Origin: Chromatiales bacterium
Lineage (GTDB): Bacteria > Pseudomonadota > Gammaproteobacteria > UBA6429 > Thiohalophilaceae
NCBI GenBank assembly: GCA_026984045.1
Contig: JALSSV010000085.1
Location: 1 to 36,586, forward strand
Direction of reading: 5' to 3'
DNA: 36,586 nucleotides
The notes under the pieces were generated by a model. The model was not told where the DNA came from, ran no database searches, and saw only the letters and a program-made list of their open reading frames with translations. Within the stretch, counting starts at the first letter, position 1. The number at the start of each line of letters is the position of its first letter. Positions 870 through 5,541 of the stretch are shown piece after piece. Both the position numbers and the translations under genes were made by a program.

Positions 870-1697
870 TTACGCTGTGTCCCGGGCGAAAGCCCGGGCA
901 TGGCGTTCGATGGCATGACGGAACTGTTCACCCAGGGGATCGAGCACGCGGGGATCCGGTGTGCCCGTGGTCTCGTCCATGAAGACCTTTTTCACTTCCG
1001 AGGGCAGGATGAGCGTGTTGCGCAGGTGTTCGCGCACGAAGGTGGCGTGGTAGCCGCGGCCATAGAAGACCTCGTTGACGGCCACCCGCACGGGAATGCC
1101 GGGCAGACTGATCCGCCCCAGCGCCGCCACCCAGGCTTCCACCTGGGCCTGCCAGCGTTTCATATCGATCTGTTCGGTGCCCACGTTGAACACGGGGGTG
1201 TCACCAATCCCCGGCCGCCGGTAGTTGAAGGAGTGCACGTCGTAGGTGAGCACCGCCGGGTGGCGGGCTTCGAGCTGGCGGTACAGTGCGCCGAGCACTT
1301 GGTAGAAGGCCGCGTGTTTGGCGAGACTGCGTTCGCGCTGGGCGTCATCCAGCGGCGTTCGCCACACCGGTTTGCCCCAGGCTTCCTCGTAGATGCAGGC
1401 CGCCGGGGGCCGGTTCAGATCGTATTCGAAACGGGAGTCGCGGGCGCAGACCGTGATGGGCAGGCCCTCGATGAGGCGGTCGGTGAAGGGATCCTCTTCG
1501 TAGAGCCGCTCTGCCTCGTTCAGGGCACATTTGCCAGCGAGATCCGGTGACAGGCGGTGGCCGGCGTGGATGGCCGTGGCCGCGAAGTGCACATAGGCGT
1601 CGATGCGTACCTCGAAGGCGCCATCATCCACCCGGGCATGGAAGCATTCGCCGGCCGCGATGCGATCGATGCAATCGTCGTGAGTCAGATCAATCAT
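870..1697 (-). CDS. N-formylglutamate amidohydrolase-family (FGase, HutG-like) protein
   Basis: This 275-residue protein carries the conserved blocks of the FGase family (PF05013), which hydrolyses N-formyl-L-glutamate to formate and glutamate and is related to Zn-dependent carboxypeptidase-fold amidohydrolases. Visible blocks are IHAGHR (43-48), the acidic EEDPFTDRL segment (67-75), SRFEYDLNRPP (88-98) and YDVHSFNYRRPG (152-163). The last two match the 'SR..vDLNR' and 'D.HS' signatures. No other hut gene is nearby, so a role in the histidine pathway is doubtful; it may act on another acylated or formylated amino acid. Its ATG overlaps the end of the upstream symporter-binding-protein gene by 8 nt (ATGATTGA), so the two are very likely translated together and serve one substrate. 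Its 3' end runs through a strong hairpin at 881-898. Confidence 0.82.
   Translation of the reverse strand: MIDLTHDDCIDRIAAGECFHARVDDGAFEVRIDAYVHFAATAIHAGHRLSPDLAGKCALNEAERLYEEDPFTDRLIEGLPITVCARDSRFEYDLNRPPAACIYEEAWGKPVWRTPLDDAQRERSLAKHAAFYQVLGALYRQLEARHPAVLTYDVHSFNYRRPGIGDTPVFNVGTEQIDMKRWQAQVEAWVAALGRISLPGIPVRVAVNEVFYGRGYHATFVREHLRNTLILPSEVKKVFMDETTGTPDPRVLDPLGEQFRHAIERHARAFARDTA
881..898. terminator. GC hairpin with GAAA tetraloop inside the 3' end of the amidohydrolase gene
   Basis: CCCGGGC (881-887), loop GAAA (888-891) and GCCCGGG (892-898) form a perfect 7-bp stem. It lies between two convergent genes, one ending at 847 and the other at 870, and overlaps the last codons of the leftward gene. 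No T-tract follows on either strand, so it is either a bidirectional RNA 3'-end stabiliser/attenuator or a REP-like unit, not a textbook intrinsic terminator. Confidence 0.45.
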
Positions 1698-3816
1698 GGG
1701 TTGTCTCCCGGGTTTTGCCGTAGACCCAGTAGGCCATCAGTGCGTCGAGGGTGCCACGGGTCTGTTCCACTTTCAGCCACAGATTGATGAAATCGGCGAA
1801 GTGGGGATCCCCCGGCGGCAGCACCATGCCGAGGGGCAGGCGCGTGTCGAGACCCTGGGGCACCACCACCGAGAATTGGGGATAGATGAGGGTCCAGATG
1901 GCGCCCGATTCGGCGGAATAGATCATCACGTCGGCCCCGGTCTTGCCCGTGAGGAAATCCCGTGGCGAGGCGATGGGCACGATCCGCGCCCCGGGGAAGC
2001 GGCGGCGGATCAGGGGGGCATACACGCTCTCGCGCAATGCCGCGAGCACGCCGATCCGCAGGCCTTTCTGTGCCCGGATGCCTTCGAGGGTGGTGAAGAC
2101 CTTGCGCCGGTAGTCCGGCACCACGAAACCGATGTGTTCCACCAGGTAGGGCTGGGTCATCTCCCATTCCCTTGCCCGTGCCGTGGTGATGGCCAGGCCG
2201 CCGGCCAGCAGATCGATGCGGCCCTCGGCGAGGGCGGCCACGGCGGCCGGTTTGTCCAGGCGCACGATCTCGAGGCCCACCCCCAGCTTGCGGGCCAGGA
2301 TACGCAGCAGATCCATGTCCAGCCCCACCACCTGGCCTGCCTTGTTGCGGAAGGCGAAAGGCACCGCATCGCGGGGGAAGGCCACCCGCAGGCTTCCCCG
2401 CTCGGCGATGGCCTGCAGGCGGGGCCGATCGCCGGGCAGTGGAGCCAGGCTTTGCGGATCGGTGATGAACCGTTCCGGCTGTACCCGTTCGATGGGCTGC
2501 ATGCTGATCAGCTTTTCGTAGCCGGTGTATTCGTAGGGGACCAGCCGGCCAAGGACGACCCCCAACCCCCACATGAGCAGGCCGGTCACGGCCAGGCCCA
2601 GCAGCAGCGCGCGCACCAGGCCCTCTCGGCGTAGCCGCCCCAGCATCACGCTGGCGCCCAGCAGGCTGATGACCACCGCATGCATGGCCGCCAGTACCGT
2701 GGCGAAGCGGGCGGTCATCACACTGCCAACCAGATAGAGCTGGAACAGATCCGCGGGCAGGTGAAAGTAGTCGAGCATGAAGGGCAGCGCCACGGCCATG
2801 GTGCCGAAGGCGGAGATGGCGCCGGTCACCACGAAGCCGGGATACTGGCTGATGTCCAGGGGCGCGCCAACGAACCAGCCGGCAAAGAGGATGAAGCCGA
2901 TCCCGAGCAGGGTGCCCACACTGGGAAAGGTGTAAGCGGTGGGCACCAGCACGTCCACGGCCGTGTCGGCCGCCTTGCTCACCATGCCGTGTTCACGCAG
3001 CAGGGTCTTGGTGCGCTCGATGATCATGGGAATTACCACCAGAACGGTACCGGCGGCGAAAGCGGTGACCATGGCCGTGCGCGCGTCGCGCATCACTTCC
3101 CGATAGCCAAATGGCGTGGCCCAGGCCACGAACAGGGGCAGAACCAGGAAAGTGAGCACGAGCCAGGCGCCGGCATAGACCCACAGATACACCTGCAACC
3201 GGGCCAGGGCCTGCACGTCCAGGGTGCCGGCGGCGGCCGCGGTGAGGGCAAAGATGCCAATGGGCGCCAGCCTGGCCACGAAGGAAGCGATTTTCATCAG
3301 AGCGTCGCTGAGATTCTGCATGCCCCGTAGCAGGCCGTCCTTGTCCGGAACCGCGATCAGCGCCAGGCCCATGGCGATGCTGAATACCACGGCCGCCGGC
3401 ACGATGGTGTTGGCCAGGGCGTGGAAGGGATTGGAGGGGATGTAGAGGGTTAGCGGATCGAAGCGGGCGGGTGGCGTGATCAGGCTGGTGCTGAAGAAGG
3501 CGGCCGACGTCCAGTCGGGATAGGCCAGGGGCATGGTCAGCAGAGTGAGCATGGCCGTGGCCCACAGGAACAGGATGAGACCGGCGCCGGCGAGGCCGAT
3601 GCGTCTGGCCATGGCCAGCTCCAGCCTGCCCAGGCCACCCATCAGGGAGAACAGGATGTAGGGCAGCACCGTCATCTGCAGCAGGCGGATATAGGCGTTG
3701 CCGATCCATTCCAGCCGACCCGCCCACTCCCCCACGGCAATGCCGAAACCGATACCCGCCAGGAGGCTGAAAATCACCCGCTGGAAGGGGGAAAGCGGCA
3801 TGCGAAAGGTTTTCAT
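1690..3816 (-). CDS. Dicarboxylate/amino acid:cation symporter fused to a periplasmic SBP_bac_3 solute-binding domain
   Basis: This 708-residue two-part transporter has a DAACS (GltP/DctA)-type secondary carrier at about residues 10-395 with many hydrophobic helices, followed by one more helix at 401-423. About 40 residues later a complete amino-acid-type binding domain of family SBP_bac_3 spans about 465-702. That domain shows 'GSLRVAF' (474-480), 'VGLDMDLLRILARKLG' (497-512), 'EGRIDLLAGGL' (531-541) and the ligand-binding Arg block 'TTARAREWEMTQPY' (544-557). The extra helix should put the binding domain on the periplasmic side. The signature carrier motifs are altered: a Ser-rich loop ending TLP and NMDGT are replaced by 'TAFAAGTVLVVIP' (251-263) and 'TFPSVGT' (296-302). 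The start at 3816 (MKTFRMPL) is chosen for spacing from GGGATGG; an in-frame ATG at 3825 is possible. It is co-translated with the FGase-family gene. A glutamate-like or acylated amino acid substrate is inferred. Confidence 0.85.
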   Translation of the reverse strand: MKTFRMPLSPFQRVIFSLLAGIGFGIAVGEWAGRLEWIGNAYIRLLQMTVLPYILFSLMGGLGRLELAMARRIGLAGAGLILFLWATAMLTLLTMPLAYPDWTSAAFFSTSLITPPARFDPLTLYIPSNPFHALANTIVPAAVVFSIAMGLALIAVPDKDGLLRGMQNLSDALMKIASFVARLAPIGIFALTAAAAGTLDVQALARLQVYLWVYAGAWLVLTFLVLPLFVAWATPFGYREVMRDARTAMVTAFAAGTVLVVIPMIIERTKTLLREHGMVSKAADTAVDVLVPTAYTFPSVGTLLGIGFILFAGWFVGAPLDISQYPGFVVTGAISAFGTMAVALPFMLDYFHLPADLFQLYLVGSVMTARFATVLAAMHAVVISLLGASVMLGRLRREGLVRALLLGLAVTGLLMWGLGVVLGRLVPYEYTGYEKLISMQPIERVQPERFITDPQSLAPLPGDRPRLQAIAERGSLRVAFPRDAVPFAFRNKAGQVVGLDMDLLRILARKLGVGLEIVRLDKPAAVAALAEGRIDLLAGGLAITTARAREWEMTQPYLVEHIGFVVPDYRRKVFTTLEGIRAQKGLRIGVLAALRESVYAPLIRRRFPGARIVPIASPRDFLTGKTGADVMIYSAESGAIWTLIYPQFSVVVPQGLDTRLPLGMVLPPGDPHFADFINLWLKVEQTRGTLDALMAYWVYGKTRETTHD

Positions 3817-3882: not shown

Positions 3883-4389
3883 ATGGAAAAACCGGTTGAA
3901 ATCGCACCGCTCACCGTCGCGGATCTGCCCGACGTCAATGCCGTGGTGGAACAGGCAGTGATGGGCTGGAACCTGCCGGAACGGGTCAAGCGCCTGTCCC
4001 TGCCATCCTACCGTTACCAGACGGCGGATCTGGCGCACCAGGCAGGACTGGTGGCGCGCAGCGCGGAAGGCGAGGTGGTGGGGGTGGCGGTCTGGGAGCC
4101 GGCGTCGCACGAACCCGTCGGGGCCGAGGGGAGCGTGTTCCTGCTGCATGGGCTTTACGTGGCACCCGCGTGGCAGCGGCGCGGCGTCGGTGCGCGTCTG
4201 CTGGCGGCGGCCCGGCATGTCGTTTGCGGGGCCGGGGCGGCAGGGCTGCTGGTGCGTGCCCAGGCCGAAGCGGTGGCCTTCTTCCGCGCCATGGGCTTGC
4301 AGGAACTGCCGGTGGAGGACGAGAAGCGGGACTATCCCCATCGTTTCTTTCTGGCCTGTGCCAGTGGCAAGACGGGAGAGGCGTCATGA
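3883..4389 (+). CDS. GNAT-family N-acetyltransferase
   Basis: This 168-residue single-domain acetyltransferase follows the GNAT layout. An N-terminal 'PLTVADLPDVNAVVEQAV' helix is followed by 'VVGVAVWEP' (strand 4 region), 'LHGLYVAPAWQRRGVGARLL' with the acetyl-CoA pyrophosphate-binding motif Q-R-R-G-V-G at residues 98-103, and a C-terminal 'AEAVAFFRAMGLQEL' helix typical of this fold. The acceptor substrate cannot be told from sequence. Its TGA overlaps the ATG of the Nudix gene (ATGA at 4386-4389), so the two are translationally coupled. It starts 66 nt from the divergent symporter gene, in a short AT-richer interval (TATACT/TATCTT-like boxes) that probably holds both promoters. Confidence 0.85.
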   Translation: MEKPVEIAPLTVADLPDVNAVVEQAVMGWNLPERVKRLSLPSYRYQTADLAHQAGLVARSAEGEVVGVAVWEPASHEPVGAEGSVFLLHGLYVAPAWQRRGVGARLLAAARHVVCGAGAAGLLVRAQAEAVAFFRAMGLQELPVEDEKRDYPHRFFLACASGKTGEAS

Positions 4390-4922
4390 ACGACGCGCCA
4401 AAGGTGCGCTTTCGCGGTCGGATCATCACCCTCGAGCAGGAAGAGGTGACCCTGCCCAATGGCCACAGAACGTTGCTGGAGATCGTGCGCCATCCGGGCG
4501 GGGCGGCCATCGTGGCGGTCGATGATCGTGGCCGGGTATGCCTGTTGCGCCAGTACCGCCATGCGGTGGCCGAGTGGCTGTGGGAACTGCCGGCGGGCAA
4601 GATCGATCATGGCGAGCCGCCGGAGGTCACCGCGCGGCGGGAATTGCAGGAAGAGGCCGGCTGTACGGCCGGCCGCTGGCAGCCGCTGGGGTATCTCATT
4701 GCCTCGCCCGGGGTGTTCACCGAGCGGGTGTGGTGCTATCTGGCCACCGATCTGCAGCCGGTGGCCACGGCCCACGAGGCGGAAGAGGTCATCGAGATCC
4801 ACTGGCTCGATTTTGCCGAAGCCCTGCGCATGGCCCGGGACGGGCGGATCAGCGATGCCAAGACCATCGTCGGCCTGTGCCGGGCAGCCGATTTGCTGGG
4901 GGACGCGGGATTGGCGAAATAA
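4386..4922 (+). CDS. Nudix hydrolase, ADP-ribose pyrophosphatase type (NudF-like)
   Basis: This 178-residue protein has a complete Nudix box (G-x5-E-x7-R-E-x2-E-E-x-G) at residues 71-92, reading GKIDHGE...RRELQEEAG. The lead-in 'LWELPAGKIDHGE' and the N-terminal 'TLPNGHRTLLEIVRHPGGAAIVAVD' with 'CLLRQYRHAV' are typical of the NudF/ADP-ribose pyrophosphatase group, which cleaves ADP-ribose to AMP and ribose-5-phosphate. Related members act on ADP-sugars or other nucleoside diphosphate derivatives, so the precise substrate is inferred. The start is fixed by the ATGA overlap with the GNAT gene. Coupling to an acetyltransferase is not a widely conserved pairing. A bulged GC hairpin at 4964-5004 follows the stop. 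Confidence 0.88.
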   Translation: MNDAPKVRFRGRIITLEQEEVTLPNGHRTLLEIVRHPGGAAIVAVDDRGRVCLLRQYRHAVAEWLWELPAGKIDHGEPPEVTARRELQEEAGCTAGRWQPLGYLIASPGVFTERVWCYLATDLQPVATAHEAEEVIEIHWLDFAEALRMARDGRISDAKTIVGLCRAADLLGDAGLAK

Positions 4923-5011: not shown

Positions 5012-5464
5012 TCAGGCGACGTCGTGAGGCAGGTATTCGGGCAGGTGGGCCCGGATGTCTTCCGGGGTGTGCTGGGTGAGGTTCTTGTCCAGGGTGTAGA
5101 TGACCGTCTTGCGGGTGGCGTCGGGCAGTTCGTTGCGCAGCAGCCCCAGAAAGGACGGGGCGGCCACCAGAATCAGGCGCTGGAAGCGGTGCTTCTTGCG
5201 GTTGTCGTCCAGATGCCGGGCCAGGTATTTGGCGAAGTTGACGATTTCCTGCTCTTTCGGCTCCACCTCGTCCTGGAAGCCGTGGGCGCCGATGCCGGTG
5301 TCGTTGCGATGCTTGCCCGGCAGATCGGTCACCAGTTCCTGTTCGTGTTCGCGACTTTCGGGGTGGGTGAGATCCTCCAGTTCCTCGAGGGGGGCCGAGG
5401 GGGTGGCGGCGGTGAAAATGCGGGCCCGGCTGCTGTCGGCGACGAGAATCCAGGTTGGTTTCAT
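5012..5464 (-). CDS. Host attachment-family protein (PF10116-like)
   Basis: This 150-residue soluble protein resembles the 'host attachment protein' family. It has an N-terminal strand and loop 'MKPTWILVADSSRARIF', then 'LEELEDLTHPESREHEQELVTD' and 'DTGIGAHGFQDEVEPKEQEIVNFAKYLARHLD'. The C-terminal half 'RLILVAAPSFLGLLRNELPD...' resembles the nuclease-like fold of eRF1-domain proteins. The family name comes from a plant-associated bacterium; in most bacteria the role is unknown, although homologues are often stress- or low-oxygen-induced. The start at 5464 is preceded by AGGGGA at good spacing. The upstream FNR/Anr-like box with a -10 at the expected distance suggests induction when oxygen is low. 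It is a single-gene unit with no signal peptide. Confidence 0.78.
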   Translation of the reverse strand: MKPTWILVADSSRARIFTAATPSAPLEELEDLTHPESREHEQELVTDLPGKHRNDTGIGAHGFQDEVEPKEQEIVNFAKYLARHLDDNRKKHRFQRLILVAAPSFLGLLRNELPDATRKTVIYTLDKNLTQHTPEDIRAHLPEYLPHDVA

Positions 5465-5499
5465 GCGTTTCCCCTTTACGTGGTTGTTTCGTTGTGCCT

Positions 5500-5541
5500 G
5501 ATGTACGCCGATCCGGCGGGACGTGCCCTGATCCGGATCAA
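5500..5541 (-). promoter_or_regulatory. FNR/Anr-type site and -10 box upstream of the host-attachment gene
   Basis: On the minus strand TTGATCCGGATCAG (5541-5528) matches the FNR/Anr consensus TTGAT-N4-ATCAA at 9 of 10 positions. The hexamer TACATC (5505-5500) begins 30 nt from the centre of the site. If TACATC is the -10, the site is centred at -41.5, the class II FNR activation position. The implied leader to the ATG at 5464 is about 30 nt. TACATC is a weak -10, which suits an activator-dependent promoter. Confidence 0.55.

Follow-up and report, generated by a model that had tools for sequence, protein, structure and literature searches.

A single frame in the window, i.e. the whole stretch of 36,586 nucleotides analysed here, encodes an SDF-type membrane domain, an extra membrane helix and an SBP_bac_3 binding domain, and is followed by an overlapping gene for an FGase-family amidohydrolase. 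We propose, with a probability of roughly one half, that this fusion is a secondary importer of the elevator type carrying its own tethered binding domain, which would take up an amino-acid-like carboxylate to be hydrolysed inside the cell by the FGase. This reading is favoured by the recurrence of the fusion, the conserved variant site of its carrier half, the fold of its binding domain, the intact FGase, the adjacency of the two genes in one clade and the precedent of the TAXI-GltS systems.

Architecture of the fusion gene

The fusion gene occupies positions 1690..3816 of the reverse strand, on which all features of the system lie, as one intact frame of 708 aa with its ATG at 3816. The open frame extends upstream to 4341, and the start was placed at 3816 on the grounds that residue 13 is where the Pfam match sets in and that most relatives start near this position. 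When searched with Pfam, residues 13-386 (2656..3780) match the SDF model (PF00375) over its full length (model positions 4-383 of 387; E 2e-50; 172.4 bits against a cut-off of 27.9), and residues 476-698 (1720..2391) match SBP_bac_3 (PF00497; model positions 1-130 of 132; E 2.1e-23; 82.9 bits against 26.4). Between these domains, the hydropathy of the frame predicts a ninth membrane helix (residues 404-422; 2551..2607) that would bring the C-terminus outside; since it follows a positively charged loop, with four K/R and one D/E, the binding domain would be periplasmic. The original prediction of a carrier, an extra helix and an SBP_bac_3 domain in one frame is therefore confirmed. Pfam reveals no further domain in the frame, be it TRAP or a cytoplasmic output domain, and PADLOC gave no match. 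The fusion is flanked by a divergent GNAT acetyltransferase gene (3883-4389), a NUDIX gene (4389-4922) and a baeRF/Host_attach gene (5012-5500).

Recurrence of the fusion

Including the window copy, 27 copies of the fusion were collected from approximately 24 gammaproteobacterial genomes, three of them being cut by contig ends (L009, which starts inside the gene, L043 and L044). A scan of genome contigs yielded seven relatives with 48-80% identity (L003-L009, where L003 and L008 were equated with contigs of equal length in G024 and G224, respectively). A profile built from these relatives (A1; fusion threshold E <= 1e-70) matched 5 genomes out of 40 in the order, 10 out of 369 in the class and 6 out of 398 in a sample of the phylum, with the window's own genome counted in each set. 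All of the matching genomes in the phylum sample belong to the window's own class. The fusion is thus real and recurrent. Three genomes with the fusion consist of a single contig (G322, G620 and G703); three carry two copies each (G191, G379 and G620), and a distant copy is found on one Halioglobus plasmid record (35.7% over 81%). A second profile, restricted to the SDF half (A3; 13 rows; E <= 1e-30), recovered exactly these 10 of the 369 class genomes, with 12 places. Eleven of the places include the binding domain, and the twelfth, in G336, breaks off at a contig end; as scoring with this profile was confined to the best few candidates of each genome, an unfused copy could have escaped. As far as seen, this SDF subfamily is always fused to a binding domain.

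The FGase gene and its linkage to the fusion

The gene for the FGase-family (PF05013) amidohydrolase, putatively of the Zn type, lies at 870..1697 and encodes 275 aa. Its ATG (1695-1697) and the stop codon of the fusion (1690-1692) leave 8 nt common to both genes, an overlap that had been predicted and is reproduced from the coordinates, and the ATG is preceded by a GGGAGA stretch. The FGase domain covers residues 42-219 (E 1.8e-23; 84.3 bits against a cut-off of 28.9), and the model of the protein (pLDDT 90.0) resembles the solved FGases 2q7s (Z 23.8, rmsd 2.4, 236 aligned) and 2odf (Z 21.1), with carboxypeptidases at about 12. The core motifs H44, EED (67-69), SRFEYDLNR, DVHS and E234 are intact, and by analogy with the family fold H44, EED, SR(Y/F)EYDLNR, DVHS and E234 would form the Zn site. 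At the level of sequence, a PDB search with the protein gave no match at 0.1 and one with an FGase profile only two chance-level matches. No other PF05013 match occurs in the window's genome. HutG, the N-formylglutamate deformylase, was tried as an assignment and rejected (22.6 bits against a TIGR02017 cut-off of 278.75), and hutU was not found in the window's genome, in agreement with the earlier statement that the locus does not serve hut catabolism.

An FGase gene adjoins the fusion in 11 of the 12 members of one clade, which has a support of 100/99 in a 24-row tree with 11 clade rows. Three gene orders are involved: the FGase may lie downstream, with genes overlapping by 1-8 nt (seven cases: the window, L003-L007, and L009, where the FGase was read with a GTG start), upstream on the same strand (L032 and L033) or convergent with the fusion (L008 and L035). 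In the twelfth member, G753, about 60 nt separate the end of the fusion from a contig end, and the FGase is located 493 nt from the end of another contig, coordinates from which we infer that the two genes are adjacent. Within the order sample, both genes are present in G000, G024, G032 and G039; G023 carries a MATCAP-linked FGase, and in G030 an FGase lies at a contig end and no fusion was found. At the 15 fusion loci outside the clade, several of which are short (3.7-6.4 kb), tblastn detected no FGase, so this enzyme says little about the fusion family as a whole, and the predicted conservation of the coupling holds inside the clade but not outside it. This restriction to one clade, together with the presence of fusions elsewhere beside unrelated genes (trmO/rcsF, glycosyltransferases) and without FGase, could mean that the two genes are neighbours by inheritance only and share no substrate; nevertheless, an adjacency that survives three gene orders, and down to 40% FGase identity, makes this rather unlikely.

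Other neighbours of the distant fusions (trmO, rcsF, EamA, a glycosyltransferase and the PLP decarboxylase of L046) were considered and set aside, as they recur only among near relatives. For instance, a distant fusion at L046:6780-11790 is placed between a gene for a pyridoxal-dependent decarboxylase and an overlapping group-1 glycosyltransferase gene, and L041 also has a glycosyltransferase beside the fusion. The most divergent fusions (L048:8174-12339, L049:7884-12005 and L050:5583-9680) are followed in constant order by RcsF-like, TrmO and EamA genes, with Pfam applied to these neighbours in L049 only. At L035:4285-8364, genes of AI-2E-type transporter, ion channel, HlyD-type and FUSC/DUF2955 families accompany the fusion, and homologues of some of them lie near it in L032 and L045. 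Finally, an nSTAND1 NTPase with a winged-helix regulator domain and TPRs is encoded near a distant copy at L047:3626-6961.

Relatives of the FGase

On the basis of sequence, the window FGase is kin to FGases linked to MATCAP and not to HutG, and the original prediction is amended in that the enzyme is placed in this MATCAP-linked lineage instead of among the N-formylglutamate deformylases. In the class sample, FGase relatives (E <= 1e-15) are present in 17 of 369 genomes: three adjoin an SDF-SBP fusion (G000, G224 and G256), three are themselves fused to MATCAP (G142, G144 and G258) and 11 have an adjoining MATCAP-like gene, while the standalone full-length FGases of the window type all stand beside the fusion (three of three). 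The 13 FGase places of the phylum sample comprise the window, seven places with MATCAP and five with neither MATCAP nor the fusion within their flanks by single-query tblastn, those of L095 and L096 being shortened by contig ends. A strict dichotomy of MATCAP or fusion, which held in the class (14 + 3 of 17), failed in the phylum sample and was discarded.

The closest FGase relatives are the FGase-MATCAP genes of L054, which possess the same N-terminal extension and an SRYEYDLNR motif but have a peptidase as partner, in contrast to the transporter-like partner of the window FGase. At L054:401-3428, a glutathione-synthetase-like ATP-grasp gene precedes the FGase-MATCAP fusion gene, an order that may point to substrates containing amide or peptide bonds. 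Similar arrangements are seen in L080/L087, L088, L089 and L092. In L060 the FGase domain is C-terminal (481-720) in a stop-to-stop frame of 729 aa, and pieces of MATCAP, unlinked to the FGase, occur at the ends of two contigs in the window's genome (G000:C29:20-634 and G000:C103:8-370).

The binding domain and its likely ligand

The model of the SBP_bac_3 domain (pLDDT mostly 75-89) has 5t0w as its best fold match (Z 20.9, rmsd 3.2, 217 aligned), and its fold matches are amino-acid-binding proteins and the cyclohexadienyl dehydratases related to them; the ligand core of GluR0 (1ii5, Z 18.0) is also among them. For the ligand, two columns of HisJ were followed, in which an Arg presumably binds the carboxylate and an Asp the ammonium group, and which are occupied in the window by R547 and S634, respectively (within 1720..2391). 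The carboxylate column holds Arg in 17 of 26 binding domains and in 11 of 12 from the FGase clade, with Leu in L008, a clade member that has the FGase. The ammonium column holds Asp in none of the 26, and hence the combination of Arg and Asp that marks a free amino-acid binding protein is found in none of them. An Arg that is kept where the Asp is absent suits a ligand that bears a carboxylate but no free amino group; these columns are thus compatible with an N-blocked or amide-linked amino acid. However, E636, which is invariant in an 8-row alignment and lies two residues beyond S634, could stand in for the ammonium Asp, in which case free amino acids might be bound as well. Of the ligands suggested in the original prediction, glutamate is thus unsupported, whereas an N-acylated amino acid would be compatible with both columns.

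A variant but conserved site in the carrier half

The SDF halves of the 27 fusions were aligned with E. coli GltP, DctA, TcyP and SstT, the second SDF carrier of the genome and an unfused carrier encoded next to the fusion in L035. In SLC1 proteins, the serine pair of HP1, the NMDGT motif of TM7 and the Asp, Arg and Asn of TM8 (GltPh numbering) are the residues that we take to contact substrate and ions. None of the 27 fusions has the TM7 Asp, nor does any have the canonical residue in the TM8 columns of Asp394, Arg397 or Asn401; the HP1 serine pair is absent in 26, L040 being the one that keeps it, and the HP2 region is shorter, leaving a gap in the alignment. The replacement residues are themselves conserved, with Pro in the TM7 Asn column in 27/27 and a TM7 Gly in 26/27. 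In the window, the variant motifs are FAAGTV (253), FPSVGT (297), SAFGTM (335) and TARFAT (368), all within 2656..3780. A conserved Arg, R370, remains unaligned two columns from Arg397, and the alignment of TM8 could shift accordingly.

The six comparators retain the TM7 Asp in four cases, Asp394 in four, Arg397 in five and Asn401 in five, and the other SDF carrier of the genome has its canonical motifs intact. In this alignment, SstT, annotated as a Na+ symporter, lacks all four of these residues, and TcyP, likewise annotated as a symporter, also lacks the TM7 Asp. Because symporters such as these do without several of the same residues, the alignment reveals a distinct site in the fusions and does not mark them as dead transporters. 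On the same basis, the carrier half does not qualify as an ordinary glutamate symporter, and its site is variant and conserved rather than random. The original designation as a DAACS-type carrier therefore stands as regards the full-length SDF match and fails as regards a standard DAACS site; with the canonical residues mostly absent, transport itself is an assumption. The model of the SDF half, made from an 8-row alignment, has a pLDDT below 50 for residues 1-278 and 282-433, and for this reason no site is proposed at residue level.

The loss of most substrate and ion residues could alternatively point to a receptor or a ligand-gated channel, in which the SDF half would have no coupled transport and the binding domain would gate an ion or anion path or a sensor conformation. 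SBP_bac_3 domains do serve GluR0-type channels, whose ligand core is matched here, and sensors such as BvgS (4q0c, 3mpk). Nevertheless, we regard this as unlikely, given that the frame has no cytoplasmic output domain by Pfam, that several of the same residues are also absent from the annotated symporter SstT, and that a cytoplasmic hydrolase as partner fits import better. Much the same standing is given to an ordinary Na+/H+-coupled amino-acid symporter, to which the binding domain would add only affinity and in which the site differences would be tolerated: the SDF match is full length and TcyP and SstT share the missing TM7 Asp, yet TM7, HP2 and TM8 are changed jointly in 27/27 fusions, and HP1 in all save L040, with a shortened HP2, while the other carrier of the same genome retains the canonical motifs. 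An assembly or annotation artefact in which two genes were run together, conceivable as many source genomes are MAGs, is refuted by 27 independent copies with intact frames, some from the single-contig genomes.

Proposed mechanism

For the preferred reading, a binding-domain-tethered importer, the periplasmic domain would capture an amino-acid-like carboxylate that is scarce outside and most probably lacks a free α-amino group (N-acylated, or amide- or peptide-linked). This ligand would then be handed to the elevator domain, either in the same subunit or in a neighbouring one. The membrane domain would then release the ligand inside the cell, powered by an ion gradient through its rebuilt site, and in the FGase-linked clade the co-translated FGase would hydrolyse the amide bond in the cytoplasm. 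Transport, ligand, coupling ion and cleavage are steps that we infer. A more far-reaching form of this reading, one part of which is that a single clade feeds an FGase-type amide hydrolase, is put forward tentatively, at somewhat less than even odds.

Known systems and significance

Among elevator carriers, the SLC1 fold has been studied most thoroughly. Like GltP, DctA, TcyP, SstT and GltPh of the DAACS/SLC1 family, the fusion covers the whole SDF model and keeps the IP(S/T)NPF and APIGIFAL-like stretches, but it differs in the HP1 serine pair, TM7 Asn/Asp, HP2 and TM8 and in the addition of a ninth helix and a binding domain. GlnPQ-type ABC importers (6h30) also tether SBP_bac_3 to a membrane component, which in their case is an ATP-driven ABC permease. 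In TRAP and TTT systems a binding protein supplies a secondary carrier as well, although both their membrane and their binding-protein families are unrelated to those of the fusion. According to a 2025 report, soluble binding proteins had been known only for the TRAP and TT(T) secondary families before the description of TAXI-GltS, in which a binding protein is translationally coupled or fused to a GltS carrier (PMC12344293). TAXI-GltS is the closest published precedent and demonstrates that carriers of the elevator type are able to recruit a binding protein (PMC12344293); it shares with the fusion the joining of these two components by translational coupling or in one frame. The Pfam families are nonetheless different: TAXI-GltS has an N-terminal binding protein of the TAXI family and a GltS (ESS) carrier, whereas the window fusion has a C-terminal SBP_bac_3 domain and an SDF/SLC1 carrier with a variant site.

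Whether the elevator mechanism is what lets carriers use a binding protein is raised as a question in the Discussion of that report, with further classes as its test (PMC12344293). In the open-access literature searched, judged by titles and the beginnings of abstracts, no description of an SDF-SBP_bac_3 fusion was recognised. As SLC1 is the elevator fold that has been studied best, a natural SLC1-type carrier with a tethered binding domain would be a test of that question. It would also show a transporter family keeping its fold while losing the classical substrate site, and would be an apparently new way of supplying a transporter fold that has been studied well with a nutrient already captured.
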